From contig JAHCIT010000009.1 in assembly GCA_026129095.1 (NCBI GenBank), positions 1-64,000 on the forward strand: DNA of 64,000 nt. Direction: 5' to 3'. Both the position numbers and the translations under genes were made by a program. How positions within the stretch are numbered: the first letter of the stretch is position 1; each line of letters opens with the position of its first letter. Shown piece by piece: positions 5,267 to 56,320 of the stretch. The notes below the pieces were generated by a model. It made no database searches, was not told where the DNA came from, and saw nothing but the letters and a program-made list of their open reading frames with translations. This DNA comes from Deltaproteobacteria bacterium (GTDB lineage: Bacteria > JAGRBM01 > JAHCIT01).

Positions 5267-6508
5267 TCAGGATATCTTTTCCGGCTCGCGAACAACGGCC
5301 GACAGTTCGAGCACGGAAATCTCCGGAGGGCAGTTGAACCGCCAGCGGGGCCCCGCATAGCCAACGCCACGGCTTACGAACAGCCATCCCTGCTCGTTCA
5401 GCCGCCGGTCCGGCGGGAACCAGCCGCGGTCATAAAACGGGCGAAGCAACCGGAACTCCGGCAAAAATGGGATATTCGGCGAGATCATCCCGCCATGCGT
5501 ATGGCCTGCCAGCGTCAGATCAAACGCCCGCTGCACCATCCCGCCCCGCACGACCCACGGACGGTGAGCGAGCAGGATCCGGTATCTGGTCCGGTCGCCC
5601 CACAACCATTGATCATCCTTCATCCCGCCGGCGCTGGCTGGGAGTTTGGGATTCTGGCTTACCGGATCATCTATACCGACAATCTCGATCCCGTGTTTCT
5701 GCAGGAACTGCTCGTCTGCCGAATTCCGCAGAAACCGCACGGCCGTCCGTTCCTCGACAGCCCTCTGGAGCCGGTCTGCACCCCAATAATGATCGTGATT
5801 GCCCGTTATGGCGATAGCCGGAATCTCGTACGGCAGTTCTGAAAGCGGGGCGATGAACGGCTCCAGCCATCGGTCGTTCACCCGGTCGATAAAGTCTCCC
5901 GTCAGCGCAATAAGGTCCGGCCGTTCCTTCACTGCCATCTGGAGCGTGTGTCTCCATGCAACGCTGTCGAACATGGGGCCGACGTGCGGATCGGTCACCT
6001 GCACGATACGAAAGCCGCTCGCGGCAGCCAGATGCAGCGGTACAGGAACCTTCCACCGTTCAATGATGATCTCGTCAGGCCGGACACGCGAGGACGCCAG
6101 AGTCCCAATCCCGGCCAGAACGAAACCGCCACCGGCGGCATTCTTCAGCAGATCTCTGCGGCCAATCGTTACGGCGTTTGCCCGATCGGGTAACGCAGCT
6201 TGCGACCGGCCAAACGACAGGCGCCATATCCATCGTCCCCCGAACAGCACCGTAACCAGCAGCGCCGTTATACCGAACAGATAGTGGCCGGTGACAACTC
6301 CGTTGTAGAAAGCCCGGTAGATGAAATCTTCTTCGCCAGGCAGCACCCACCTGCCGGGAACCTGGCGCTTGATTCCATGGGCCGCGAGGTTCATTCCCGC
6401 AAGCAGTGCCCACAGTGTCCACATGACTCCCTTGCGATGACCTGCAAGGCGCCGTATCCAGTAGACCTCCAGAGCTAGGAAAATGATGAGTCGGAAAAGT
6501 GCTGACAC
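5267..6508 (-). CDS. Membrane-anchored metallophosphoesterase (YkuE-like)
   Basis: A 413-residue protein with three to four N-terminal hydrophobic helices (residues about 3-95), a twin-arginine-like segment (RRDLLKNAAGG, about 117-127) and a calcineurin-like catalytic domain. All metal ligand blocks are present: D173-P-H175, GD(204-205)FID, GNHDHYWG (236-243), a later AHRPW and GHTHGG. Family members are dinuclear-metal phosphodiesterases or phosphatases; YkuE- and LpxH-related ones act at the membrane. The catalytic domain probably faces the periplasm. The start is GTG. About 85 bp separate it from the barrel gene downstream, and 70 bp separate it from the divergent DUF3943 gene. Confidence 0.85.
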   Translation of the reverse strand: MSALFRLIIFLALEVYWIRRLAGHRKGVMWTLWALLAGMNLAAHGIKRQVPGRWVLPGEEDFIYRAFYNGVVTGHYLFGITALLVTVLFGGRWIWRLSFGRSQAALPDRANAVTIGRRDLLKNAAGGGFVLAGIGTLASSRVRPDEIIIERWKVPVPLHLAAASGFRIVQVTDPHVGPMFDSVAWRHTLQMAVKERPDLIALTGDFIDRVNDRWLEPFIAPLSELPYEIPAIAITGNHDHYWGADRLQRAVEERTAVRFLRNSADEQFLQKHGIEIVGIDDPVSQNPKLPASAGGMKDDQWLWGDRTRYRILLAHRPWVVRGGMVQRAFDLTLAGHTHGGMISPNIPFLPEFRLLRPFYDRGWFPPDRRLNEQGWLFVSRGVGYAGPRWRFNCPPEISVLELSAVVREPEKIS

Positions 6509-6578
6509 GCTGGCTAACAGCCTCCTGCCCCGTTTTTACATTGACACGGCTGCCGCAACAGGGTTAGTGACCTGCGTC

Positions 6579-8177
6579 ATGTCCGCAAGCCGCCTGTCCC
6601 TCATCCGGCGATCCTTAGTTTTACTGGTTTTCATCTGTTCTGTTGCAGTTCCAGCCTTCCAGGCTGCTGCCGAAAGTGCAGATGAAACGATTGCCGACAC
6701 GCCGCCAGCCTCTTCTCCATTATCGCCAGAATCGTCTGTTATCTCCGGAGAGGCTGCCGGCAGTTTCAGGCTCTGGGGAGAGGAACGTCGCCCCTCACAG
6801 AGCGAACTCCGCTCCGGGCACAGATTTGACCGTGGCTGGTTTCTGCTGGGTTCACTGGCGGGCGGCTTCTGGCGTGGACACTATCTCACCCCCGGCTCTG
6901 TCGGCGGATATCTGACGCCAGATGGTTTCCGGGGAGAACAGCCTCCTGAAGTGGACATCGTATACAGCGCCAATGTGGCAGGCGGACGTTTCATCACGCC
7001 CTACTGGTCTCTGGAAATCAATTTTGCCGCCGCGGTCGGTCTGAAACGTCAGAAAGGGCGCGTTGCATTCGGTATCTCGGATCCACCGGGCAGCGGCGAC
7101 CGTGTATCATCCATTTCCGCCTATCACCTCAGAAACCGGTTTTATCTCTACGACTTCGACGCCGAACGCCGGTTTTTTGCGATCTTCGGAGCGGGATGGA
7201 CCCAGTTCAACGACTCGTATTATCTGCCCCATACATCAACCACCGAGGCGAAATCGACGATATTTGCACCTTCAATTTCGTCCGGCGCCGGGCTGACCCT
7301 GTTACATACCGAAAATTCCCTCGTTTATGTTGAGGGGAACCACTATCACACCTTCAGCACCAAGAATCTCGATTCCAGCCAGGTCTACACATTTGGCATC
7401 GGCCTGTCTTTCCCGCTGGACTCCAAGGTATATACGGAAGCAGACATAAGCGAGGTGGCATTCTCCAGGCCGGGGCAGCCCGCTCAGGCCGCATGGCTGG
7501 ATGCCGGTCCGCTCTCTCCGGTTCTGCCGGGAATGCACCGGCAACGCATTCTCAGCACCGGAGACCTGCGCCTCATTGCCTATCAGAATGCGACAGGCCC
7601 CGGCATTCCCAGGGACGCACTGATGCCCCCTGTACGCAGCGGCCTGGATTTCACCGTTGATACAATTGTCATTAGCGGCGTCATCATGGGATTCAAGCGG
7701 GCGCTGAATGTCACGTCGGCCAGAGGCCTGCTGCGGGGAGGCTACGAACGGTGGCCGGATAATGTCAGTCAGGTTCCACCCTGGAATGATGGCAACCAGT
7801 TCTACACGAACTGGATTCTCCACCCCTATGCAGGGGCCGTTTACTATATGTATTACCGGGACCGCGGCTACTCACGGCTGGCCAGCAGCCTTGGGTCTTT
7901 CCTTGTTTCCGCAGTGCACGAGTATCTGATCGAATCGATCTATGAGCCTCCCTCTGGAATAGATATCATTCTGACGCCGGGACTCGGTGTGCCTCTCGGA
8001 ATCATCATGGATGATACCTCGGTCCAGTGGGCACGCTCCGATTCCGGTCTTAAGCGCACAGCCGCCTATTTTCTGAACCCAATGCTCGGAATGCCATTCG
8101 CCCGGTTCCGGCGTGGGCCATACTATGATCCGTCAGCAGACAATCCCTGGACGTTAAACTGGAACTGGAACTGGTAA
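6579..8177 (+). CDS. DUF3943 domain exported protein
   Basis: A 532-residue protein with a signal peptide (basic start, hydrophobic core, cleavage near AFQAAAES). The N-terminal half looks like an outer-membrane barrel with many aromatic and small residues. The C-terminal half matches the DUF3943 pattern: an NWILHPYAGAVYYMYYRDRG block, a Ser-rich helix, then EYLIESIYEPPSGIDIILTP and a PLG motif. DUF3943 proteins are diderm envelope proteins of unknown function. The tail ends TLNWNWNW, encoded by a short CTGGAA repeat. The ATG at 6579 is chosen because the signal peptide follows it directly; the frame is open upstream to 6483. TTGACA at 6541 may be a -35, but no good -10 follows. Confidence 0.75.
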   Translation: MSASRLSLIRRSLVLLVFICSVAVPAFQAAAESADETIADTPPASSPLSPESSVISGEAAGSFRLWGEERRPSQSELRSGHRFDRGWFLLGSLAGGFWRGHYLTPGSVGGYLTPDGFRGEQPPEVDIVYSANVAGGRFITPYWSLEINFAAAVGLKRQKGRVAFGISDPPGSGDRVSSISAYHLRNRFYLYDFDAERRFFAIFGAGWTQFNDSYYLPHTSTTEAKSTIFAPSISSGAGLTLLHTENSLVYVEGNHYHTFSTKNLDSSQVYTFGIGLSFPLDSKVYTEADISEVAFSRPGQPAQAAWLDAGPLSPVLPGMHRQRILSTGDLRLIAYQNATGPGIPRDALMPPVRSGLDFTVDTIVISGVIMGFKRALNVTSARGLLRGGYERWPDNVSQVPPWNDGNQFYTNWILHPYAGAVYYMYYRDRGYSRLASSLGSFLVSAVHEYLIESIYEPPSGIDIILTPGLGVPLGIIMDDTSVQWARSDSGLKRTAAYFLNPMLGMPFARFRRGPYYDPSADNPWTLNWNWNW

Positions 8178-8180
8178 GGG

Positions 8181-8209
8181 TTGGTCTCCCTCACCGAACC
8201 GTCTAGAGT
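8181..8209 (+). promoter_or_regulatory. Candidate sigma-70-type promoter
   Basis: TTGGTC (8181-8186), a 17-nt spacer and TAGAGT (8204-8209) lie between the DUF3943 stop and the small lipoprotein gene. Start would fall near 8216, giving a leader of about 40-50 nt. The boxes match the consensus only partly. Confidence 0.4.
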
Positions 8210-8253
8210 TAAAGGCACAGGCTGAGGGCATATTGCGGCTTCCTGCTGCGTGG

Positions 8254-8661
8254 ATGCCATTCATGCCAAACCGTTCAATCTATTGGGGTCTACTTGCCGC
8301 GATGTTTCTCGCCGGTTGTGGCGATTTTATGGGCGGCACCGGTGGTCCTCCCGGCGACGGTGCTGACGAAAGCATCCATATCATTGCCGTAAAAAACAAT
8401 CAGCCTGTTCCAGTCACGGTGGGTTTCGACGCCAGCGCAGGTGTTACGGGCGGGCAGGTCACGAGCGGACAGCGCCGTGAATTCTGCTGCTTCGCCCCCG
8501 GAACCGCACTCCCAAAAGTAACCAGTTCCCTCGGCCCCTGGTATGAAGAGCCGGGTCCAGTGGTAAATTTCACTGATGCCGATACCAAGACAGCAGAATA
8601 TGCTGTTGGCTGGAACTCGATATCGCTGTCAGGATCAATTACCTGTTCGAACTGCCCCTGA
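8254..8661 (+). CDS. Small hypothetical lipoprotein
   Basis: A 135-residue protein starting at ATG 8254, or ATG 8263 three codons later. A short hydrophobic segment leads to the lipobox LAGC, followed by GDFMGG and a Gly/Pro-rich linker. The remaining 90 residues look like a small beta-sandwich with Cys pairs (FCC and a CSNC near the C-terminus) that could form disulfides. No family recognised. It has its own candidate promoter and converges with hpt across 10 bp. Confidence 0.6.
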   Translation: MPFMPNRSIYWGLLAAMFLAGCGDFMGGTGGPPGDGADESIHIIAVKNNQPVPVTVGFDASAGVTGGQVTSGQRREFCCFAPGTALPKVTSSLGPWYEEPGPVVNFTDADTKTAEYAVGWNSISLSGSITCSNCP

Positions 8662-8671
8662 AACTCCGGGG

Positions 8672-9202
8672 TTAGTCGTCTGCCACACTAATAAACGGCA
8701 GGTTTCTGTACTGTTCATTGTCATCCATGCCGTAACCCACCACAAACGGGTTCCCTTCCAGCTCAAATCCCACGAAGTCTATCAGCTTGCGGAGTTCGCC
8801 GGAATCCGGAGCCGTCGCCTTGAACAGCAGGGCGACCGTCCAGAGAGATTCCGGGGATTTCCCCATGAGGTGGCTCCGGATGTATTTAAGCGACATCCCG
8901 CTATCAACAATATCCTCAACGATCAGCACCCGCCGTCCGGAAATATTCAGGCTGATATCGGTGAGCAACCGGATTTCACCCGATGATGTACGCGCAGCGC
9001 CGTAACTGGCCACTCTCAGGAAGTCGATCCGGCAGGGGCGCTCGATCTGCCGCACCAGATCGGACAGAAAGACAAATGACCCCTTCAGGATTCCAATGAC
9101 GTCCAGTTCCCCAGGAGGCAGCGTGCGGTTGATCTCACCGGCAACCGCAGTGACCCGATCGCGCAACTGCATGTCCGTATAAAGAGTACGTATCCCGTTC
9201 AC
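8672..9202 (-). CDS. hpt: Hypoxanthine phosphoribosyltransferase
   Basis: A 176-residue type I phosphoribosyltransferase making IMP or GMP from hypoxanthine or guanine and PRPP in the cytoplasm. The PRPP-binding motif VLIVEDIVDSG is intact, ILKGSF near residue 40 is the PPi loop, and the C-terminal base-binding segment DFVGFELEGNPFVVGYGMD is typical of HPRT. Full length for the family. Start is GTG at 9202. It is the last gene of the salvage operon, 9 bp after cdd, and would reuse the base released by the purine nucleoside phosphorylase upstream. Confidence 0.93.
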   Translation of the reverse strand: MNGIRTLYTDMQLRDRVTAVAGEINRTLPPGELDVIGILKGSFVFLSDLVRQIERPCRIDFLRVASYGAARTSSGEIRLLTDISLNISGRRVLIVEDIVDSGMSLKYIRSHLMGKSPESLWTVALLFKATAPDSGELRKLIDFVGFELEGNPFVVGYGMDDNEQYRNLPFISVADD

Positions 9203-9211
9203 CGGCCTAAC

Positions 9212-9625
9212 CTATCCCAATCTGAATGCGCCGGGTAGAAGCTTCCTGAGTCTTGCCCGCTGAACCGGACCTGCTCCGCGGTCAAGCACGATCTCCAGAT
9301 CAGGAAAAAACTCGCTCAAGACCTGCAAACACGCCCCGCAAGGCCGGGGGTATCCTGCCCCTTTGGCTGACACCGCGAGCCGCTTTATCCTGGATGGTTC
9401 GATGCCGTCGGAGACCATTCGGGAAATAACACTTCTTTCGGCACAGATAGAAAGACCATAAGAGGCATTCTCGATATTGCAGCCGCTGATATACGCCGAC
9501 GTCTCTCCGGCGACACGCAGTTCCATCGCTGCGCCCACATTATAGCGGCTATATGGCGCATATGCCTTTCCCGCGGCATTACGCGCGTTTTCGATCAGCG
9601 GGTCGCGGTGAAAGCGTTTCGACAC
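9212..9625 (-). CDS. cdd: Cytidine deaminase
   Basis: A 137-residue homotetrameric-type cytidine deaminase, converting cytidine or deoxycytidine to the uracil nucleoside. The zinc site is complete: CAERS provides the first Cys and the catalytic Glu, and PCGACLQ provides the other two Cys ligands. The YAPYSRYNVGAA segment is the usual N-terminal substrate loop. Start is GTG at 9625, supported by an AGGAAA ribosome-binding site 9 nt upstream. The first 47 bp overlap the end of the purine nucleoside phosphorylase gene in another frame, which suggests translational coupling. Confidence 0.93.
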   Translation of the reverse strand: MSKRFHRDPLIENARNAAGKAYAPYSRYNVGAAMELRVAGETSAYISGCNIENASYGLSICAERSVISRMVSDGIEPSRIKRLAVSAKGAGYPRPCGACLQVLSEFFPDLEIVLDRGAGPVQRARLRKLLPGAFRLG

Positions 9626-42494: not shown

Positions 42495-43604
42495 CTACGC
42501 CCCACTGAGCTCCGGATCGAGGCGGGAGAGCACTTCCCAGGCCGGCGCATAGTCGGAATGCGAGACAAGATTTCGCTTCAAAAATCCCTGCAGCCTCGGA
42601 ATGAACGGCAGGTAAGCGGGGTTTTTCTTCACCCGATCAATATAAACGAACCGTCCCAGGGCCTTCATGTTTCGCTGAATCGCCTGGTCAACGAAAAGGC
42701 GGGAAAATTTCCGGTGATCCAACCTGTAGTGCCTGTCTGCTGTCGCCCGGGCTTCCGCATAAACGTCCACGAGCCGTGCCACCACATTCTCCGGCACTGT
42801 AACGTAGGCATCCCGAAGCAGTGAGGCGAGATCGTAGACGTCAGGCCCCATCAGCGAATCCTGAAAATCGATCACACCGATCCCACCTCCCTCCAAAACC
42901 ATCAGGTTCTTCGAATGATAGTCACGGTGGGTTAGGACCTGGGGTTCGGCAAAAAGCCGTGTCACGATTGGTTCAAATACATCCGCCAGAGCTTTCCGGT
43001 CAGCAGCGGACAGCTTTATCCCGAGACGGACCTCGATACCGTATTCGAGATAGTGGTCGAACTCCCACAAAAAAAGTTTTGGCGAAAACTGCTGATGGAA
43101 GCCGGTGCAATCTCCTATGGACCGGTCCGATCCCTTCGTGTGGTACCGGGCCATTTCGCGCACAGCTGTTTCATACGCCGCCAGCACATCAGGTGTAAAC
43201 CCCTTTGCTGTGGCTGCATAAAGACTGGTATCACCAAAATCCTCAATCAGCAGGTAACCCACTTCATCTGCCCGGAAATAGATAACCGGCACACGTACCC
43301 CGGCCACGAGAAGATGGCGGTCCATGGAACAGAATGGGTCTTCTCCAGGGCCATTGCCCTCGGTTGCCTCCTCTGACCCAAGGGGCCTGCCAACATTGTT
43401 CATCTGCATCAGAACGACTGTGCGAGGCACGTCGTCGTGCGGTTCCAGATGGATCCGGTAATACTTCCTGACGCTTGCATCCCCTTCGATGGGTGAAATC
43501 GCCCAAACACGCCAGCCGGGTGCAACATTTCCGGCCAGAAGATTCGCCACATCAGCAATGGGGGTTTCGGGCGTTATTCTTGCGACGGGATCCGGGAGTG
43601 GCAT
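42495..43604 (-). CDS. AmgK-like aminoglycoside phosphotransferase-family kinase
   Basis: A 369-residue protein of the APH/choline kinase fold. The catalytic loop is VLTHRDYHSKNLMV, the metal Asp is in VIDFQDSLMGPDVYDLASLL, and the N-lobe has ASVRKYYRI. This wording is close to AmgK, the anomeric MurNAc/GlcNAc kinase of cell-wall recycling. The usual partner MurU is not in the window. It lies 44 bp after the last of the four radical SAM genes on the same strand and so probably belongs to their operon; its substrate may be a sugar they act on. Confidence 0.78.
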   Translation of the reverse strand: MPLPDPVARITPETPIADVANLLAGNVAPGWRVWAISPIEGDASVRKYYRIHLEPHDDVPRTVVLMQMNNVGRPLGSEEATEGNGPGEDPFCSMDRHLLVAGVRVPVIYFRADEVGYLLIEDFGDTSLYAATAKGFTPDVLAAYETAVREMARYHTKGSDRSIGDCTGFHQQFSPKLFLWEFDHYLEYGIEVRLGIKLSAADRKALADVFEPIVTRLFAEPQVLTHRDYHSKNLMVLEGGGIGVIDFQDSLMGPDVYDLASLLRDAYVTVPENVVARLVDVYAEARATADRHYRLDHRKFSRLFVDQAIQRNMKALGRFVYIDRVKKNPAYLPFIPRLQGFLKRNLVSHSDYAPAWEVLSRLDPELSGA

Positions 43605-43648
43605 AGAGCGGCAGTTAAAACCACCGGACGATGCACGGCAAGCCCTTA

Positions 43649-45466
43649 TCAGGCCACCCGGCTCGTTCTAGCCGATTTTTCAACCTGCCAGTTGTCGAGG
43701 GTTCCCATGATCGGATCGCTGGCAGAGGCGAGATGCGGCGCAGCCCAGTAGGCAGATGAATAGTCCGTATTTCCCACTGGATCGGTGCGAAGTTCGATCC
43801 GGACTGTTTTCCCGCCAAAAGCTGAAAGATCCAGGTCGAAATGGTGCCAGGCACGATGCGACGGGTCGGTCTTCGGCGCCAGCGACCGGTCGAACAGGAG
43901 TGTTCGTAAAAACCGGCCACCCGCGTATACACGGAACCGGACACCATCAGTTCGGCTCCAGACTTCAGGGACAATACCGATACCAAACCTCAGGCGCGAG
44001 TCCGGTTTTACCCCCACCCGATAGATCAGCCGCGTCGGTGGATGGGCGCACAGGGCACTGCGTTCCTCATAGTTGAGCTTTGGCGCAGCGATATAGACGT
44101 AGCTGGGGTCTGGTGTCACCACCGTGGCCGTATCACGATGCTGGAGCAGGTCGTAATAGCCGCGACGGGCCTTTTCCTCGGCGATCTCGATACCCGAACG
44201 AGCAAACTCCCGGTAAAGCTCCAGCAGCCTTTCACGGCTGATAGTAGGGAGGTCCAGAAAGCTGTTCTCGTCGAAATAGCTCGGGTCTGTATCCTGCCGG
44301 AGGATCCCCTGTTCTTTCGCCTCGCGGTACAACGACGTACCAGGAAACGGCGTGAATATTGTTACTATGGTCCGGTTGGGGCGTATTTCCCGGTTGAGGT
44401 CGATAGAATCCCGGACCGTCTGTTCGGTTTCGCCCGGTATCCCGATGATGTTGTAGGTGGCCGTCTCGATCCCAAGCCTGTCGGCCTCACGGAAACACTT
44501 GCGGATATCGTCATTTGATATCCTTTTGATGAGCACTTTCCTTCGTAACTCCTCGTTACCGGTTTCTACCCCTGCCACGACCGAATACAGTCCCACATCG
44601 CGCAGGAGTTCCAGGCGTTCGGCATCAATTGTTTTTACCTGTAGCTGGATACGGAAAGGCATCCGCACACGGTCTCCGTAGATACGGGCAAATGCTTTCG
44701 TCCACTCCCGGTTCAAGGTAAAAATGTCGTCAATGAAATAGAACGTCCGGTTTCCATAGGTATCGCGGACATATTCACATTCGCGAACGACATCTTCAGG
44801 TGTCCGCCAGCGCAAGTTCGAGCCCAGCTCCCGGTTCTGGTCTATCTTCACTTCATTCGAACAATATGAGCACCGGTATGGACATCCCCGGCCCGCCATG
44901 ACGTTCGCCTCGCCATTCATCATCTCAATGACGCGGCTGAAGTCGAACAGTTCGTGATCCGGCCATCCGAGGCGGTCCAGATCCTCTACCAGCGGCCCCA
45001 TTGGATTCTGTTCCCATGCGCCAGCAGCAGTTTTCAGCCAGAAGTTGGCCAGGCCTGTTGGCCGACGGTTCCCAGCGCCCAGTTCCTGAACGTACTGGAC
45101 GAACTGGTCTTCACCTTCCCCGATGCAGATGGCGTCCAGTTCCGGCGCCTGTATGAGCGTCTCGTGGGGAGCCAGCGTCGGGTGGATACCCCCTGCAATT
45201 ACCTGCAAGCCAAAATGGGCTTTTGCCCAGCGAATCATGGGCACAACGAACCGCCACTGCCCGGAGGTTGTCGAGATGGCGAGAAGGTCCGGTTTCTCTT
45301 GCTGAATACGCTGGCAGAACTTTTCTTCAGAAGGCATCTCGGCCAGATGATACAGTGAACGGTCCGCTCCAGCCCGCTTCAATGCACCCGATAGCATCCC
45401 GATCCCCATCTGGTAATAGTGGGGCGTCCTGGACGCGATATCAGGATAGAGGAACAGCACTTTCAT
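43649..45466 (-). CDS. B12-binding radical SAM protein with C-terminal beta-sandwich (copy 1)
   Basis: A 605-residue protein. Residues about 1-145 are a cobalamin-binding Rossmann domain (ITTSGQ-like start, VIAGGIHPTLAPHE at 89-101, GEGED at 116-120), about 185-410 a radical SAM barrel with RGCPYRCSYCSN (Cys195, 199, 202), and about 460-590 a beta-sandwich domain shared with the three neighbours. No DxHxxG base-off histidine motif is visible in the B12 domain. A 25-residue tail after the sandwich is unlike the others. B12 radical SAM enzymes methylate or rearrange unactivated carbons; substrate unknown. It overlaps the upstream copy by 4 bp. Confidence 0.8.
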   Translation of the reverse strand: MKVLFLYPDIASRTPHYYQMGIGMLSGALKRAGADRSLYHLAEMPSEEKFCQRIQQEKPDLLAISTTSGQWRFVVPMIRWAKAHFGLQVIAGGIHPTLAPHETLIQAPELDAICIGEGEDQFVQYVQELGAGNRRPTGLANFWLKTAAGAWEQNPMGPLVEDLDRLGWPDHELFDFSRVIEMMNGEANVMAGRGCPYRCSYCSNEVKIDQNRELGSNLRWRTPEDVVRECEYVRDTYGNRTFYFIDDIFTLNREWTKAFARIYGDRVRMPFRIQLQVKTIDAERLELLRDVGLYSVVAGVETGNEELRRKVLIKRISNDDIRKCFREADRLGIETATYNIIGIPGETEQTVRDSIDLNREIRPNRTIVTIFTPFPGTSLYREAKEQGILRQDTDPSYFDENSFLDLPTISRERLLELYREFARSGIEIAEEKARRGYYDLLQHRDTATVVTPDPSYVYIAAPKLNYEERSALCAHPPTRLIYRVGVKPDSRLRFGIGIVPEVWSRTDGVRFRVYAGGRFLRTLLFDRSLAPKTDPSHRAWHHFDLDLSAFGGKTVRIELRTDPVGNTDYSSAYWAAPHLASASDPIMGTLDNWQVEKSARTSRVA

Positions 45467-47364
45467 GCGGCCGCGCTCCTGCTGGATGACTCGGCCCGGC
45501 TGGCATCAAGCTCCGGTCCCGCCGCAAATGTGACATGTGGACGGGTTTCAGCCGCATTCCTGTATTCGATCCACGGGTGCCCCCACCCCGCCCATGCCCA
45601 GGTGCCATGCCCCTCGGCAGCGGTTGTCTGGAAGATGAATTCGACCTCGCCGGGGGTCTCTCCGGAAAGGTCAATCTCCACGGGAAGCCAGCTACGGTCG
45701 GCGGGATTCCGGCGCGGGAAAACAGTCTGGTCCAGCAGTTTCTTTTTCATCCGCCACGGGCGCTTCAGGTACAACCGGAACCGGATTCCGTCTGCATCTG
45801 GCTTGTCCCAGACCATCGGATTGACCGCAAGCGCGCACTTGAATACCGATGCGGAATTAAGCCTGACGCGGAATGCCGCTTCTGCCGGGGGATGCTCGAA
45901 CAGCACGAAACGGCGGTCATTGTTCACGTCAAATGACTGGATGGAGATGTGCTTCTGTTCGGTTTCGGCAATTCGCGCCTCGATGATTTCTGCAAGAAAA
46001 TCAAAATAACCCCGCCGCTGCTTGCGGAAGAAACTCGTCGTGATGGTTTTTTCAAACTTCTGCCCCAGTTCCATCAGCTTTTCAGGCGGCATGCCGGGCA
46101 GATCAAGCACCGACCTGAACCGGTGCAGTTCTGCCTCAAAAAAGTTCGAGAACGTCCGCTCGGAAAGACGCTCGCCCACGACTTCGGGATTTTTCAGATA
46201 CCCTTCGGCGACAGACCGGCGGTAAAGTTCCGTACCCGGATAGGGATAGAACACGCAGACATTGGAAAAATCCGGCGCCAGCTTCCGGTGGAAACCGATG
46301 GTCGCCTCGATATCCTCCGGCTTCTCTCCGGGAAACCCGATCTGGTAGAAGGCCCACGTCTTTATCCCGGCATCACGGCAAACGCGAAATGCCTCCCACA
46401 TCCGCTCATCCGACATACGGCGATTGAGAATCTCCTGCCGCACCCGCTGGGAACCTGACTCGATGCCTGCGTGAATCAGCGTGCAACCGGCATCAGCAAG
46501 CAGCCCGATAAGATCTGGCTTGGCCTGCTCGACCCGCATCAGGAACGAAAATTCCATGCCGACTTCCCGTTTCCATGTGTCGGCGAACTCTTCCATCCAG
46601 CCCCGCTTCGAGATGAATACCTCATCAAAAAACTGGATATGCTTCACGTTCCAGCGGCTGATCAGGTACTTGGCTTCCTCGATCACACTTCGGACGCTGC
46701 GCTTGCGATAGATTTCATTCCCCTGCCCGTAGTTCTCCAGGTAGAACTTGTTGCAGCAGTAATGGCAATCGTACGGACACCCGCGGCCCGACAGCATGAG
46801 AGCCGCAGACTGCCCGTGCCCGTAAGCCAGATGGTAAAAATCGAAAATGTCCCGGTCCGGATAAGGCAAGTCGTCGAGCTGCCGGTTGAGTTCCTGCTTG
46901 GCGTTCCGGACAAATCCGCCATCTGCCGTGCGGGCCCACAGGTTCGGTATATCCGTCGCGGACACGCCCCGGGCATGCCGGTCAACCAGCTCCAGCAGGG
47001 CTTCCTCGCCTTCGCCCACGCAAACGTAATCAATATGCGGAGTCTCGATGAAGCAGCTTTCGGGGGCCATCATCGCATGGAAACCGCCAACAACAACCGG
47101 AAGGCCCGTATCCTCCTTGACCCACTTCACATAACGCTTGGCCTCGCTCCACATGTTTGTAACAAGCGAGAAGCCCACCATATCGGCTCCGAAATCGGAG
47201 ATCCGGCGGGCCAGGTCCTCCCGGCTGATTTCACGAACCAGGTGTATCAGCGCCGTTTCGTGTCCGGCGGCCTTCAGCGTCGCTGAGAGGTATCCGACCC
47301 CGAAATTGTAAGTCGGATTATCATAATTGCCCGGATAGTCCGGATAGATGAACATGAATTTCAT
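45463..47364 (-). CDS. B12-binding radical SAM protein with C-terminal beta-sandwich (copy 2)
   Basis: A 633-residue paralogue. B12 domain with VVVGGFHAMMAPE (90-102) and GEGEE (117-121); radical SAM core with RGCPYDCHYCCN (Cys196, 200, 203), which has an extra Cys after the third ligand; C-terminal sandwich from about 480. GGFHAMM replaces the GGxHPT of copies 1 and 4, and PGEKPED-type residues in the SAM barrel differ too, so this copy probably has its own substrate or position. Its C-terminus adds a Ser/Ala-rich tail of about 30 residues. It starts 11 bp after copy 3. Confidence 0.8.
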   Translation of the reverse strand: MKFMFIYPDYPGNYDNPTYNFGVGYLSATLKAAGHETALIHLVREISREDLARRISDFGADMVGFSLVTNMWSEAKRYVKWVKEDTGLPVVVGGFHAMMAPESCFIETPHIDYVCVGEGEEALLELVDRHARGVSATDIPNLWARTADGGFVRNAKQELNRQLDDLPYPDRDIFDFYHLAYGHGQSAALMLSGRGCPYDCHYCCNKFYLENYGQGNEIYRKRSVRSVIEEAKYLISRWNVKHIQFFDEVFISKRGWMEEFADTWKREVGMEFSFLMRVEQAKPDLIGLLADAGCTLIHAGIESGSQRVRQEILNRRMSDERMWEAFRVCRDAGIKTWAFYQIGFPGEKPEDIEATIGFHRKLAPDFSNVCVFYPYPGTELYRRSVAEGYLKNPEVVGERLSERTFSNFFEAELHRFRSVLDLPGMPPEKLMELGQKFEKTITTSFFRKQRRGYFDFLAEIIEARIAETEQKHISIQSFDVNNDRRFVLFEHPPAEAAFRVRLNSASVFKCALAVNPMVWDKPDADGIRFRLYLKRPWRMKKKLLDQTVFPRRNPADRSWLPVEIDLSGETPGEVEFIFQTTAAEGHGTWAWAGWGHPWIEYRNAAETRPHVTFAAGPELDASRAESSSRSAAA

Positions 47365-47375
47365 GCGTCCGGCCC

Positions 47376-49250
47376 CTACCTCTGGGCAGCTCCCGCAAAG
47401 TCCACCCGTGGCCGCATGTTGATCGGCTCCGTGGTAAGCGAGACCGCGTTAAAAACCCGCCACTGGCGCGTCTTGAGATCGACATGCGGACGGCCCCAGT
47501 AGACCGTCGCATATTCAGCAGATGGAGCATCGACACTGGTCTTGAACACCAGTGTCACACGCTTCCCCGCCCACGGCGAAAGATCCACCTCGAAAGGCAC
47601 CCACGTACGGTGGCTTTCGATCCTGCGTGGCGACAACGTCCCCTTCCACAGGGATTTCTGCCAGAACGTCCTCTGGATGCCGATTTCAAACCGGATCTCA
47701 TCCGGCACATGACGCTCCCAGCAGTTCGCATCCATGCCAATTTCAAACCGGAGGGCAGAACCCGCCGGAACGTCTATCGTCCAGCGATAAATGGCAGGAG
47801 GGTGTGCCTGCAGGCACACCCTCGCACCGGCCGCCAGCGTCACGATACCGAGCCCCGTATGGCCATCAGGAGCCTGGACCCGGACGCTTCCATTACGGCT
47901 GGGGCCGCCAAACTCGTCTGTCATGTCCCGCAGGCTGCCTTCACGGGCGGCAGCAACGGCCGAATTGAGTAGCACTTCGTAAAACTCAAGCTGTTTGGCT
48001 GCAATCCGCTCCGGGGCGATCGTAACCCCGTTGTAGGAACCGATACGCTTGATATCGATCCAGTGAAGCGGCTTGGCGAAGTTGCTCTCTTCGTATTTCT
48101 GGAACAGCGCCGTCCCCGGCATCGGGTTGTAGATCGTCGCCTGAAGGACGTCCGGCATCGCTTCGCGAAGGAAGTCCAGCGTCTTGTCAATACTGGCCTC
48201 GGTTTCGCCAGGTACGGCGTACATGTTGTTCAGCTTGACCCGGATACCCCGGCGCTTGCACCCGCGAATAACTTCAAGTGCCTCCTCGTTGGTAAAATAT
48301 TTCCGGAGAACCTCTTTCCGGAACTGCGGATCCCCACTCTCCATGCCGAATTCGATGCCGACGCACCCGGCCTTCTGGAGCAGATCCAGTATCTCCTCAT
48401 TGATGCCCTTGAAATGGGCGCTGATCATGAACGGGATGCCACATTCCCTGGCCCAGGTATTACAGAATGCAGCTGTCCACGGCTTGAACATCGTGAACAT
48501 CTCGTCATCGAACAGTATGGACCGGATATCGTGCTGCTGGCGCATCGCGTTCACTTCAAGGCATATCGATTCCGGAGAACGCACCCGAAGCAGCTTCTTG
48601 CCGCCATACATGTCGAGCAATGCTGCGTTCGAGCAATAAGTGCAGTGGTACGGACAGCCGCGTTGCACTTTCATCTGGAACATCCCGCCGTTGCGGCGCA
48701 GGATGTCCTTCATGTCAAAAATGCTCCGGTCTGCCCACGGAAGATCATCGAGTTTTTCGACCGCCTGACCATGGCCGCCGTCAATTGCCACTCCCGTGTG
48801 CTCGTCAGGAAGCCATACGCCTGGGATTTCGGGCCGTTGGTCGCCTGAAGCGAGCGCCGTCAGATACTGTGGAAATGAGACATCCGCCTCGCCCACGAAC
48901 ACCGCGCCCCAGAGGGGGTCGGCCGCCTCGCCCTCGGCAAAGCCTTGCTGCGGCAGAAAAGTTGTATGGATACCGCCCACGATCCGGGGGCCAAGTCCGG
49001 CCTCACGTGCCCAGCAGGCCATTTGCCGGATCAACGGCCACTGAATCGAAGTGGAACTGAAGGCGAACAGGTCAGCACCGGATGCGGCCAGGGACTGGAT
49101 AAACTCGTCCCTGGCCGGCATCAAATGATAGTTCGAGAGGCCGGTTTCCCATCCCAGTCGCCTGGCAAGTGCCGAGAGCTGCCCGACCCCGTTGTGATAA
49201 TGCGGGTCGTTGCAGGTCCCAACGTTTGTGTAGATAAAATGGACCCGCAC
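47376..49250 (-). CDS. B12-binding radical SAM protein with C-terminal beta-sandwich (copy 3)
   Basis: A 624-residue paralogue and the most divergent of the four. The B12 domain has VGGIHTTFLPQQ (91-102) and GEAD at 120-123 in place of GEGE, with a larger loop before it (EAADPLWG). The radical SAM motif is RGCPYHCTYCSN (Cys199, 203, 206). The C-terminal sandwich starts near 470 (AHPPAIYRWTI, then RTWVPFEVDLS and WGRPHV), followed by a 30-residue tail. Spacing is 15 bp from copy 4 and 11 bp to copy 2. Confidence 0.8.
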   Translation of the reverse strand: MRVHFIYTNVGTCNDPHYHNGVGQLSALARRLGWETGLSNYHLMPARDEFIQSLAASGADLFAFSSTSIQWPLIRQMACWAREAGLGPRIVGGIHTTFLPQQGFAEGEAADPLWGAVFVGEADVSFPQYLTALASGDQRPEIPGVWLPDEHTGVAIDGGHGQAVEKLDDLPWADRSIFDMKDILRRNGGMFQMKVQRGCPYHCTYCSNAALLDMYGGKKLLRVRSPESICLEVNAMRQQHDIRSILFDDEMFTMFKPWTAAFCNTWARECGIPFMISAHFKGINEEILDLLQKAGCVGIEFGMESGDPQFRKEVLRKYFTNEEALEVIRGCKRRGIRVKLNNMYAVPGETEASIDKTLDFLREAMPDVLQATIYNPMPGTALFQKYEESNFAKPLHWIDIKRIGSYNGVTIAPERIAAKQLEFYEVLLNSAVAAAREGSLRDMTDEFGGPSRNGSVRVQAPDGHTGLGIVTLAAGARVCLQAHPPAIYRWTIDVPAGSALRFEIGMDANCWERHVPDEIRFEIGIQRTFWQKSLWKGTLSPRRIESHRTWVPFEVDLSPWAGKRVTLVFKTSVDAPSAEYATVYWGRPHVDLKTRQWRVFNAVSLTTEPINMRPRVDFAGAAQR

Positions 49251-49265
49251 GAAGCCTCTCCGGCG

Positions 49266-51035
49266 TCAGTTTGCCGCACGTGACACGATAATCGGTTCGC
49301 CCCAATACGACGAGCAATACTCAGGCGATCCGGGGGCCTTCGTGATGAAGGCCAGATCGACTGTTTTCCCGGCCAGGGACGAAAGATCTATTTCAGCATC
49401 ATGCCAGCATCGGTCGTCCTTGTTGTTCTTGGGATCAATCTGCTTTTCGAACAGGGTCCGCTTGCGGAACATCGACCGGGCCTCCACCCGAAACTTCACC
49501 GGGCCGCCCTTGTCAGGTGACCAGACGGTCGGCGCCATCGTCACCCCGAATCGCAGTACCGAATTGGGCTTCAGTGTGACCCGGTAGCGAATCTCGCTGT
49601 CCGGATGGCAAAGGAGCGATGGCCGTTCGTCGGTATCCACGCGGACCAGTTCAACGTTGATATAACGCGGATCTGAGGTACGCAGCTGGGCACGGGGGAG
49701 TTCCTCAAAGAAGTCGTAATACGAACCCATTTTCTGCCTGCGTTTCATCGCGCTGAGCTGGTTTCCCAGCCGGTAAAATTCGTAATAGAGCTCTGTGAGC
49801 TTCTGCTTGGAAATTGTCGGCAGGTCCATGAACCCGACATGGGAGAAATAATTGTCGTGTTCGTATTCCTTGAGGTAGCCCTCCGACACACACACTTCAT
49901 GAAGCTTGGTCCCGGGGAACGGGGTGAATTTGAAAACCAGCGTGTGATCGGGGTTAGCCTGCCGAAGGATATCCATGGACTTCTGAATTGACTGTTCGGT
50001 TTCCCCGGGCACACCGACAATGTTGTAACTGCAGGTTTCGATTCCGACTTCGTCGCAGAACCGGAACGTATTGATGATCTGCTCATCGGTCAGGTTCCGG
50101 TTCATGACCTCGCGCCGGATGTAGTCATCGCCCGATTCGATGGCGATAATTGCCTGGTAACAACCTGCCTCTGCCAGCCGTCGGGCTGTTTCGCGGCCGA
50201 AGGTCTGCATCTGCACCTGCATGTTGAATGGCAGGTCAAATCTCTTTTTGTACTCGTCGAGAAACGCATACAGCCACTTCTTGTTCTCGGTGATGATATC
50301 GTCCGAGAACGTTATGTAACGGGCCTCTTCCGGATAGCGGTCAACAATACCCTGTATCTCGTCAATGACGCTTTCCACCGACCTCTGGCGAATGAAACGG
50401 CCATTACCGGAATAAAGCCGCATCTGGGCTTCGTTTGAACAGTAGGTGCAGCGGTACGGGCAGCCACGGGAAGTCATGATCTGCACGTTTCCATACTGAA
50501 GCCGGAGCGCCTTCGCATAATCGAGGCACTCGCGGTACGGCGGCGGCAGGCTGTCGAGGGGGTCCACCAGCTCGCGCATCTCGTTGACAATCACACGGCC
50601 ATCGGAAGCACGGGTCCAGATATTGGGTATGCGGTCAGTCGGCTTGCCCTGGGAAACAGCCTCCACAAGATCGAGCAACGCATGCTCGCCCTCGCCACGA
50701 CAAATGAAATCCATGTTGGGTTCGGCAATGCATTCATCCGGTGACAGTGTCGGGTGAACTCCACCGGCCACCGTAGGCACCGGATGCTCTTCCTTGATCC
50801 AGGCAGCCATCTGCCGGACGTATCGCCACTGGACGTACACCGACGAGAAACCGATCAGTTGAGGATCAAACTCCTTGATTGCCGCCATGAGCTTCTGGCG
50901 GTTTAGCTGAGGTACCCGCTCGAAACGGGGCTCATGACCGGCAGCCTTCAGCGTGGCAGCCAGGGAGCCCACACCAAGCTGATAGTATATTGGCGTAAGG
51001 GTATCGATATCCGGGTACAACAGCATTACGCGCAT
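49266..51035 (-). CDS. B12-binding radical SAM protein with C-terminal beta-sandwich (copy 4)
   Basis: A 589-residue paralogue and the first gene of the operon. B12 domain with VAGGVHPTLSPDE (89-101) and GEGEH (114-118); radical SAM motif RGCPYRCTYCSN (Cys192, 196, 199); C-terminal sandwich with LLCHPDSEIRYRVTL, PTVWS, CWHDAEIDLSSLAGKTV and YWGEP. It is most similar to copy 1 and lacks its tail, so it may be the simplest form. The 418-bp gap upstream is shared with divergent rpmH; a weak -35/-10 pair (TTGATG, 17 nt, TTAACT) is visible for this strand. Confidence 0.82.
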   Translation of the reverse strand: MRVMLLYPDIDTLTPIYYQLGVGSLAATLKAAGHEPRFERVPQLNRQKLMAAIKEFDPQLIGFSSVYVQWRYVRQMAAWIKEEHPVPTVAGGVHPTLSPDECIAEPNMDFICRGEGEHALLDLVEAVSQGKPTDRIPNIWTRASDGRVIVNEMRELVDPLDSLPPPYRECLDYAKALRLQYGNVQIMTSRGCPYRCTYCSNEAQMRLYSGNGRFIRQRSVESVIDEIQGIVDRYPEEARYITFSDDIITENKKWLYAFLDEYKKRFDLPFNMQVQMQTFGRETARRLAEAGCYQAIIAIESGDDYIRREVMNRNLTDEQIINTFRFCDEVGIETCSYNIVGVPGETEQSIQKSMDILRQANPDHTLVFKFTPFPGTKLHEVCVSEGYLKEYEHDNYFSHVGFMDLPTISKQKLTELYYEFYRLGNQLSAMKRRQKMGSYYDFFEELPRAQLRTSDPRYINVELVRVDTDERPSLLCHPDSEIRYRVTLKPNSVLRFGVTMAPTVWSPDKGGPVKFRVEARSMFRKRTLFEKQIDPKNNKDDRCWHDAEIDLSSLAGKTVDLAFITKAPGSPEYCSSYWGEPIIVSRAAN

Positions 51036-51453: not shown

Positions 51454-51603
51454 ATGAAACGTACGTATCAGCCTCATAATCGCCGTCGTGCCCGCAACCA
51501 CGGTTACCGGGCCCGTGCAGCGACAGCTAGCGGCCGCAAGATCCTGAAAAATCGCCGGACCAAGGGCCGCAAGCGGCTCGCCGTGCGTATTGCCAGCAAA
51601 TAG
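51454..51603 (+). CDS. rpmH: Ribosomal protein L34
   Basis: A 49-residue basic protein of the large subunit with the unmistakable L34 sequence: [20 protein letters not shown] at the start, then [18 protein letters not shown]. Slightly longer than the usual 44-46 residues. It begins the rpmH-rnpA-yidD-yidC-jag block. A short TTCCC/GGGAA hairpin follows the stop (51615-51629). Confidence 0.97.
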
Positions 51604-55260: not shown

Positions 55261-55415
55261 CCGCTTTCCTGCGAGCGGTACAGATATATTACCGGCCGGT
55301 TTTACACCGGCATTCGGATGCGTGTAATATTTCACAATGCTGGCATGCGCAGGGTGAGTACCATTGGCTCTGGCGCACTCTGGAATGATTGCTCCGGAAA
55401 CCGGAGCAGATTCCA
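55261..55415 (+). other. Hairpin cluster upstream of the GYF-like gene
   Basis: Three further inverted repeats follow the jag hairpin: CCGCT/AGCGG (55261-55278), GCCGGT/ACCGGC around TTTAC (55295-55311), and a larger one made of TGGAAT/ATTCCA outside GCTCCGG/CCGGAGC with loop AAA (55381-55415). They may be structured leader or attenuator elements. Confidence 0.4.
55301..55330 (+). promoter_or_regulatory. Candidate promoter of the GYF-like gene
   Basis: TTTACA (55301-55306), an 18-nt spacer and TAATAT (55325-55330). Start would be near 55337, giving a leader of about 108 nt that carries the large hairpin at 55381-55415. Confidence 0.4.
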
Positions 55416-55444
55416 TTGTCAGCGGCCGGGGGCGGTCCTGGATA

Positions 55445-56320
55445 GTGCCGACAGTAATTTCCAGTAAGCAGACCTACATCACGCGGAGTCCGGATGGTCT
55501 CATGATCGGTCCGGTCAGCCGCCGGGTGGTGGTCGAGCTGATTCGCGATCGCAAGGTCTCCGTAGGGCATACGTTTTCTGTCGACGGAGGGCCACAGGTT
55601 CCCATTTACGAAGACGACGAATTCCGGCAATACCTCTCCAAGTTCGGTCCCGTTCCCGCAAAAGGCGGTGCCGCGGCTGCCGATAAGCCGGTGGCTCCGG
55701 CCGGACCCCGTCCTTCGGCAGCTGCTGCACCCGCGGTTTCGGTCCCACCCGTTGTCTCTGAGCAAACCCAGCATGATCTGGAAATGCTTGACGACGAGGA
55801 TGATGACGATGACGACAGCGATTTCACCCTGAGTTTTCACGAAGTAAAGGACGTCGTACTCAGCCTGAGCCGGCAGCGCCAGAAGCTGGAAGACGACGAA
55901 GGAGTGCTCGAAACCCTTGATGACGTGCCCCTGGCCGAGATCGTCTCCGCAGATGACGAGGATGTCGTCGCCATAGGTGACGAGATGGAGCTCCCGCCTG
56001 ACGAAGTGTTTGAGGAAGTCGAAGTGCTGGAACTGGAAGCCGCTGAGACTGGACCGGTCCGGCAGGCCGCCAAAGTACCGACCTCGGGCCGCGCCCGGCT
56101 CAAGGCGGAGCTGACCAACCCCAGTAATCGCTACAAGATCCAGAACCCCGATGGCCTGATGCTGGGACCGGTCCGGATCCCTACAGTCCGGGATCTTGTG
56201 GAAGCCGGTGCCATTGATCGCCGGGCAAAAATCTCAAAAAACGACGGGCCCTATGTGGATGCCTGGAGCCTGCCAGAGGTACGCTTCCTGATCGTCCGGC
56301 TCAGCCAGAAAAAAGGCTAG
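55445..56320 (+). CDS. Protein with two GYF-like (DUF4339-type) domains and acidic linker
   Basis: A 291-residue protein. Residues about 8-62 and about 230-285 are related: each has a Tyr or Asn start, then PDGLM-GPV, a helix with a charged pattern, and a D/N-GP turn. The pattern resembles GYF_2/DUF4339 domains, which bind Pro-rich partners; this is a tentative match. Between them lies an Ala/Pro linker and a very acidic stretch (DDEDDDDDDSDF and many Glu/Asp). No signal peptide is seen. Start is GTG at 55445; the frame is open upstream to 55364. It converges with the cyclophilin gene. Confidence 0.65.
   Translation: MPTVISSKQTYITRSPDGLMIGPVSRRVVVELIRDRKVSVGHTFSVDGGPQVPIYEDDEFRQYLSKFGPVPAKGGAAAADKPVAPAGPRPSAAAAPAVSVPPVVSEQTQHDLEMLDDEDDDDDDSDFTLSFHEVKDVVLSLSRQRQKLEDDEGVLETLDDVPLAEIVSADDEDVVAIGDEMELPPDEVFEEVEVLELEAAETGPVRQAAKVPTSGRARLKAELTNPSNRYKIQNPDGLMLGPVRIPTVRDLVEAGAIDRRAKISKNDGPYVDAWSLPEVRFLIVRLSQKKG

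Follow-up and report, generated by a model that had tools for sequence, protein, structure and literature searches.

Tandem cobalamin-binding radical SAM proteins with a shared carbohydrate-binding-module-like tail: possible enzymes of surface polysaccharide modification

Four genes for B12-binding radical SAM proteins lie in series, followed by a gene for a small-molecule kinase, in the window analyzed here (the whole stretch of 64,000 nucleotides of contig JAHCIT010000009.1), and the question raised by this arrangement is what substrate could require four such enzymes side by side. The genes, called from open reading frames and Pfam matches, are all encoded on the minus strand in the order A (49266..51035, 589 amino acids, first in the operon), B (47376..49250, 624 amino acids, a divergent copy), C (45463..47364, 633 amino acids), D (43649..45466, 605 amino acids) and an APH-type kinase (42495..43604, 369 amino acids), with B, C and D having the same type of architecture as A. 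They are separated by gaps of 15 and 11 bp, a 4-bp overlap between C and D, and 44 bp. These open reading frame calls agree exactly with an earlier sequence-only reading of the locus, including its four full-length head-to-tail paralogues, its kinase and its operon-like layout, and judged by this layout A–D and the kinase likely form one operon. Four paralogues of 590–630 amino acids in series are not a product of chance. Minus-strand terminator-like sites were not found in the operon gaps, a promoter scan gave matches below chance expectation, and no B12 riboswitch was found near the operon; cobalamin riboswitches are present in both genomes of the phylum (the source genome, G000, and a second genome, G001). 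Beyond A, a divergent block rpmH-rnpA-yidD-yidC (yidD and yidC by Pfam) starts at an rpmH-like open reading frame of 49 amino acids (51454..51603, plus strand, recognized by eye from the sequence), which is context and not part of the system, and on the other side the kinase gene ends facing der, tail to tail. No glycosyltransferase or transporter genes are present at the window locus, and a search of a plasmid collection returned no full-length homologue of A–D. Elsewhere in the window (55364-56320), a gene encodes a 318-amino-acid protein without a Pfam match, in which two similar GYF-like end segments flank an acidic middle, and a similar counterpart occupies the same place in G001 (L021:14277-15167).

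The domain content points to a well-known enzyme class. In A, a B12-binding domain (residues 12–123, 50667..51002, minus strand, PF02310 at 68.2 bits) precedes a radical SAM core (residues 188–355, 49971..50474, minus strand, PF04055 at 77.2 bits) with its CxxxCxxC motif at residues 192–199. PF04055 is over its cut-off in all four proteins (71–82 bits), and the motif is intact in each, as the sequence-only reading had said. Its further statement that each copy has a cobalamin-binding domain also holds, with A, C and D over the PF02310 cut-off and B matching below it (26.4 vs. 32.1 bits, E 6.8e-06). The predicted model of A (pLDDT 85.1) matches MgmA, TsrM, AprD4, OxsB, CysS and TokK in Foldseek, with MgmA, a protein glutamine C-methylase, as the top match. 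By domains, motif and predicted fold, A–D therefore qualify as class 1 cobalamin-dependent radical SAM enzymes, and cobalamin binding is predicted for them. The residue under the cobalt differs among TokK, TsrM and OxsB (PMC13331322), and the alignment of A–D with TokK and OxsB is ambiguous by two positions at this point. The locus is real, well formed and uncharacterized; its enzyme class is ordinary, while its architecture and setting are unusual.

The unusual element of the architecture is the C-terminal domain, located at 49287..49664 in A and, by homology to the tail of A, at 47472..47861 in B, 45559..45951 in C and 43730..44101 in D (all minus strand). The proposal that all four proteins carry the same kind of C-terminal domain is borne out by sequence profile homology, and within the source genome a profile search found this tail on A–D only. 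Pfam has no match for it in any of the four proteins, including no match to a carbohydrate-binding module (CBM) family, and a PDB sequence search with the tail profile gave no significant match. The AlphaFold2 model of the tail of A (pLDDT 94.5) is nearly all beta, and its Foldseek matches in the PDB are mainly CBM51, CBM6, CBM4, CBM16, a xanthanase, a porphyran-binding module and other sugar-binding modules (best E 7.6e-05; TM by query mostly 0.43–0.72; identity about 15% or less), with the tail tip of phage lambda and some further beta-sandwich proteins also listed. Because beta-sandwiches readily match each other, the resemblance of the predicted fold to CBMs is only suggestive, and sugar binding is a prediction from the model.

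Radical SAM proteins with the same tail also occur in two other small phyla, each genome having two copies. In one phylum (G036, G065, and G066), the copies are adjacent tandem pairs, and no exporter was found beside them in the stretches read. In the other (G041, G060, and G061), the two copies lie within one cluster in G041 and G061 (L025 and L033, respectively), where the tailed radical SAM genes are found beside ABC_tran+Wzt_C genes, tailed GT2 glycosyltransferase genes and SPASM radical SAM genes, with an ABC2_membrane gene also seen in L025, and with a hexapeptide transferase, a methyltransferase and a GT4 added in the G061 cluster. Judging from gene content, the make-up of these two loci is that of an exported-polysaccharide cluster of the Wzm/Wzt type. 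The GT2 glycosyltransferases that adjoin radical SAM genes (L025:6586-8037, L033:2504-3946, and in L032) carry the same tail by sequence profile, and G041 also has weak tail matches on membrane proteins of the YfhO type and on proteins with a sulfatase fold. A single origin of the tailed radical SAM proteins was not rejected (AU p 0.127), and therefore we do not claim shuffling of the module. Serial arrays of B12-binding radical SAM genes are not unique as such, since tail-free arrays of eight (L096:3412-16974, Zixiibacteriota SURF_9) and of at least six (L111:5351-15853, candidate division LCP-89) were found. Several genes of these two arrays are 1:1 counterparts of each other, and both arrays are beside glycosyltransferase-like and membrane protein genes. 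Further radical SAM genes surround the tailed ones in places: three, two of them with SPASM, are in the polysaccharide-export cluster of G061 (L033:1445-8125), and behind the tailed pair of G036 (L023:14854-19836) come a B12-binding radical SAM gene without the tail, one for a radical SAM protein with SPASM, and one in which ferredoxin-like motifs are fused to a methyltransferase.

Since the tails resemble sugar-binding modules, and the relatives are paired and in one phylum lie in export clusters, a cell-surface sugar polymer is the probable target. Taken together, we hypothesize, at a confidence that falls somewhat short of an even chance, that A–D are cytoplasmic cobalamin radical SAM enzymes which modify carbons of a surface polysaccharide or of a precursor, use their tails for docking and are specialized by site, with the substrate, the reaction and the role of the tail all being inferred. 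The suggestion of the sequence-only reading that the substrate is perhaps a glycan gains support from the CBM-like tail, the tailed GT2 enzymes and the export-cluster setting of the relatives, and its suggestion of a single scaffold for all four is plausible. In such a system, A–D would have diverged by old duplication, and each would have its own carbon position or residue to modify, in one surface polysaccharide or in a lipid-linked or nucleotide-sugar precursor of it. The likeliest chemistry would be C-methylation from methylcobalamin, for which GenD1 and GenK (PMC4340712) and MoeK5 (PMC8992657) are precedents on sugars within the enzyme class. In the course typical of this class, SAM would be cleaved at the [4Fe-4S] cluster, hydrogen abstracted from a sugar carbon, and a methyl group supplied by methylcobalamin, while the CBM-like beta-sandwich might keep the glycan close to the radical active site during its growth. 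Some copies might instead remove oxygen at a diol or perform another radical rearrangement; dehydration is kept as a possibility because the best PDB sequence match is AprD4, a dehydratase and not a methylase. In the relatives, the product would then probably be exported via a Wzm/Wzt-type ABC exporter.

Which genes belong to this putative system can be judged within the phylum from one further genome, G001, of the same order and another family. Its locus retains A (G001:C571:8242-10014, 58% identity), C (G001:C571:6359-8245, 61%) and D (G001:C571:4574-6328, 50%) as 1:1 orthologues in the same order beside rnpA-yidD-yidC-jag, each paired with its G001 partner at 100/100 in trees. No counterpart of B exists at this locus, a MASE1 histidine kinase gene is downstream of D, and no homologue of the window kinase was found in G001 at E ≤ 1e-6, an absence that is likely but not certain given an assembly 96% complete in 630 contigs. 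Consequently, the conserved unit is the A-C-D triplet without the kinase, and the expectation that quartet and kinase stay together across species failed. The pattern that the sequence-only reading had set against its own proposal, homologues scattered singly and without a kinase neighbor, was found in its second half only: the homologues occur in pairs or triplets, and the kinase neighbor is absent from the loci read. Because A, C and D pair with G001 at 100/100 while B is long-branched and altered, the functional core is A-C-D, with B a diverged extra. The kinase is outside the conserved system, and its nearest homologues in G036 and G041 do not share a contig with the radical SAM pair. Both the kinase and B may be late gains of the source lineage, or losses in its sister.

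The kinase bears on the first alternative, in which the scaffold is a small specialized metabolite, aminoglycoside-like or a phosphosugar, that is phosphorylated by the APH-type enzyme. It has the APH domain (PF01636) with HRDYHSKN and DFQD motifs, and its PDB relative is the APH-family protein 3csv. The label AmgK-like given to it earlier is apt insofar as its best NCBIfam matches are AmgK models, but they are far below the curated cut-offs (115 of 550 and 100.5 of 500 bits), and no MurU was found over its cut-off in the source genome (best 86 vs. 250 bits, with the matches on other contigs). The AmgK recycling pathway was accordingly rejected. For a small metabolite speak the APH-type kinase 44 bp downstream of D, AprD4 of apramycin biosynthesis as the closest PDB sequence match, and the methylation of aminoglycoside sugars by GenK and GenD1 (PMC4340712). 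However, the operon has no adjoining scaffold-making gene (glycosyltransferase, aminotransferase, or cyclase), G001 keeps the triplet yet lacks the kinase, and the loci of the G041 phylum resemble exported-polysaccharide clusters, so that we regard this alternative as improbable, although it survives best among those considered.

A shade less probable is a methylation or ring change on a hopanoid or other membrane lipid, as known for HpnJ, HpnR and ladderane-type proteins. In NCBIfam, A and C score best with HpnJ, D has BchE, HpnJ and a ladderane model among its best matches, and a squalene-hopene cyclase is encoded in both G000 and G001. However, these scores are far under the curated cut-offs, with best values of 151.1 vs. 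577.6 bits for HpnJ, 132.4 vs. 481.35 for BchE and 120.7 vs. 360 for the ladderane type, and no curated cut-off for an HpnJ, HpnR, BchE or ladderane-type equivalog was reached by A–D. The tail, moreover, is CBM-like and common to GT2 enzymes. Across the eight genomes with the family, Wzt_C is over its cut-off in all eight (vs. 2 of 14 controls, which are not a matched background), while the cyclase is over its cut-off only in G000 and G001; four of the six cyclase-negative genomes are more than 90% complete. This distribution favors a polysaccharide over a hopanoid as the candidate common substrate of the family; the hopanoid named as a possible scaffold in the sequence-only reading thus loses ground for the family, while it may still apply to the source genome, which does have a cyclase. 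The exporter of G000 (ABC2_membrane and ABC_tran/Wzt_C) is on contig C16, away from the quartet (L029, G000:C16:18000-33000), and is adjoined by two tail-free B12-binding radical SAM genes (L029 1487-3710, plus strand, and 6109-9290, minus strand), and for this reason we only infer its link to the quartet.

Of much the same low probability as the lipid is the absence of any common pathway, the tandem duplicates having been retained because they serve unrelated substrates, or being in part redundant. Identity among the copies is only about 27–38% (30, 34, and 38% from A to B, C, and D), C is placed outside the A/B/D branch in trees, and B, besides being absent from the G001 locus, is fast-evolving, with a branch of ~2.0 changes per site, an uncertain placement, and changes in 11 columns where nine other members of the family do not vary, although it retains CxxxCxxC. 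Against separate pathways stand the head-to-tail layout, the 4-bp overlap, the one tail on every copy, and the joint retention of A-C-D in the same order and place in two families. The pair copies of the other phyla are orthologous copy by copy between genomes of their own phylum, and because these copies and A, C and D form 1:1 orthologue sets, the copies seem to be specialized, pointing to fixed, separate roles of the tailed copies, as the polysaccharide reading would have it. Modification of a protein or RiPP precursor peptide by A–D is the least probable of all, since, although ApyD and other RiPP B12-binding radical SAM models match below cut-off, MgmA tops the Foldseek list and SPASM radical SAM genes adjoin the relatives, a precursor would not fit between the operon genes, whose gaps do not exceed 44 bp, only weak short open reading frames and no obvious precursor lie between A and rpmH, and no RiPP export or protease genes were noticed in the loci read.

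Extending the polysaccharide reading beyond this locus, one could envisage a tailoring system in three poorly sampled phyla, in which several site-specialized cobalamin radical SAM enzymes, joined in one phylum by a GT2 glycosyltransferase, share a CBM-like docking module and C-modify a surface polysaccharide several times before ABC export; this wider proposition is doubtful, though less so than the alternatives above. If it holds, uncultured bacteria should carry unusual surface sugars with C-methyl groups or other modifications at carbon, and the shared tail would be a sequence handle to group glycan-acting members of a very large, mostly uncharacterized enzyme class. Sugar methylation by cobalamin radical SAM enzymes is known from antibiotics; multi-enzyme tailoring of an exported polysaccharide was not found in the literature, and literature searches found nothing on the layout of a tandem quartet with tails.

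Among known systems, Wzm/Wzt clusters are where the tailed relatives in L025 and L033 sit, whereas the window operon is outside any such cluster, and we know of no Wzm/Wzt cluster described with two or more B12-binding radical SAM genes and a shared CBM-like tail; nor, to our knowledge, is such a tail described for GenK, GenD1, or MoeK5. AmgK, an N-acetylmuramate/N-acetylglucosamine kinase, is similar to the window kinase by best NCBIfam matches, but the latter is not beside a MurU-like gene. HpnJ, BchE, the ladderane-type TIGR04072 and TIGR04295, the best NCBIfam neighbors, have the same two-domain core as A–D, but A–D fall far short of every one of these curated cut-offs, the models are 422–497 long with no room for a tail, and the first three act on lipids or tetrapyrroles. 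AprD4 (6FD2), the radical SAM diol dehydratase of apramycin, comes first when the family profile is searched against PDB sequences (E 1.6e-31) and has a sugar-type substrate, but its chain of 457 amino acids has no room for the tail, and A–D score below the NCBIfam AprD4 cut-off (64–80 of 500 bits). The closest functional likeness may be to GenK and GenD1 of gentamicin and MoeK5 of moenomycin, which likewise combine cobalamin and radical SAM, with Cx4Cx2C in GenD1 vs. CxxxCxxC in A–D (PMC4340712; PMC8992657). Like A–D in their proposed roles, GenK and GenD1 work on sugars and differ in the position of the common scaffold that they modify (PMC4340712), but the products of GenK, GenD1 and MoeK5 are small soluble antibiotics or one glycolipid, whereas for A–D we propose an exported polysaccharide.
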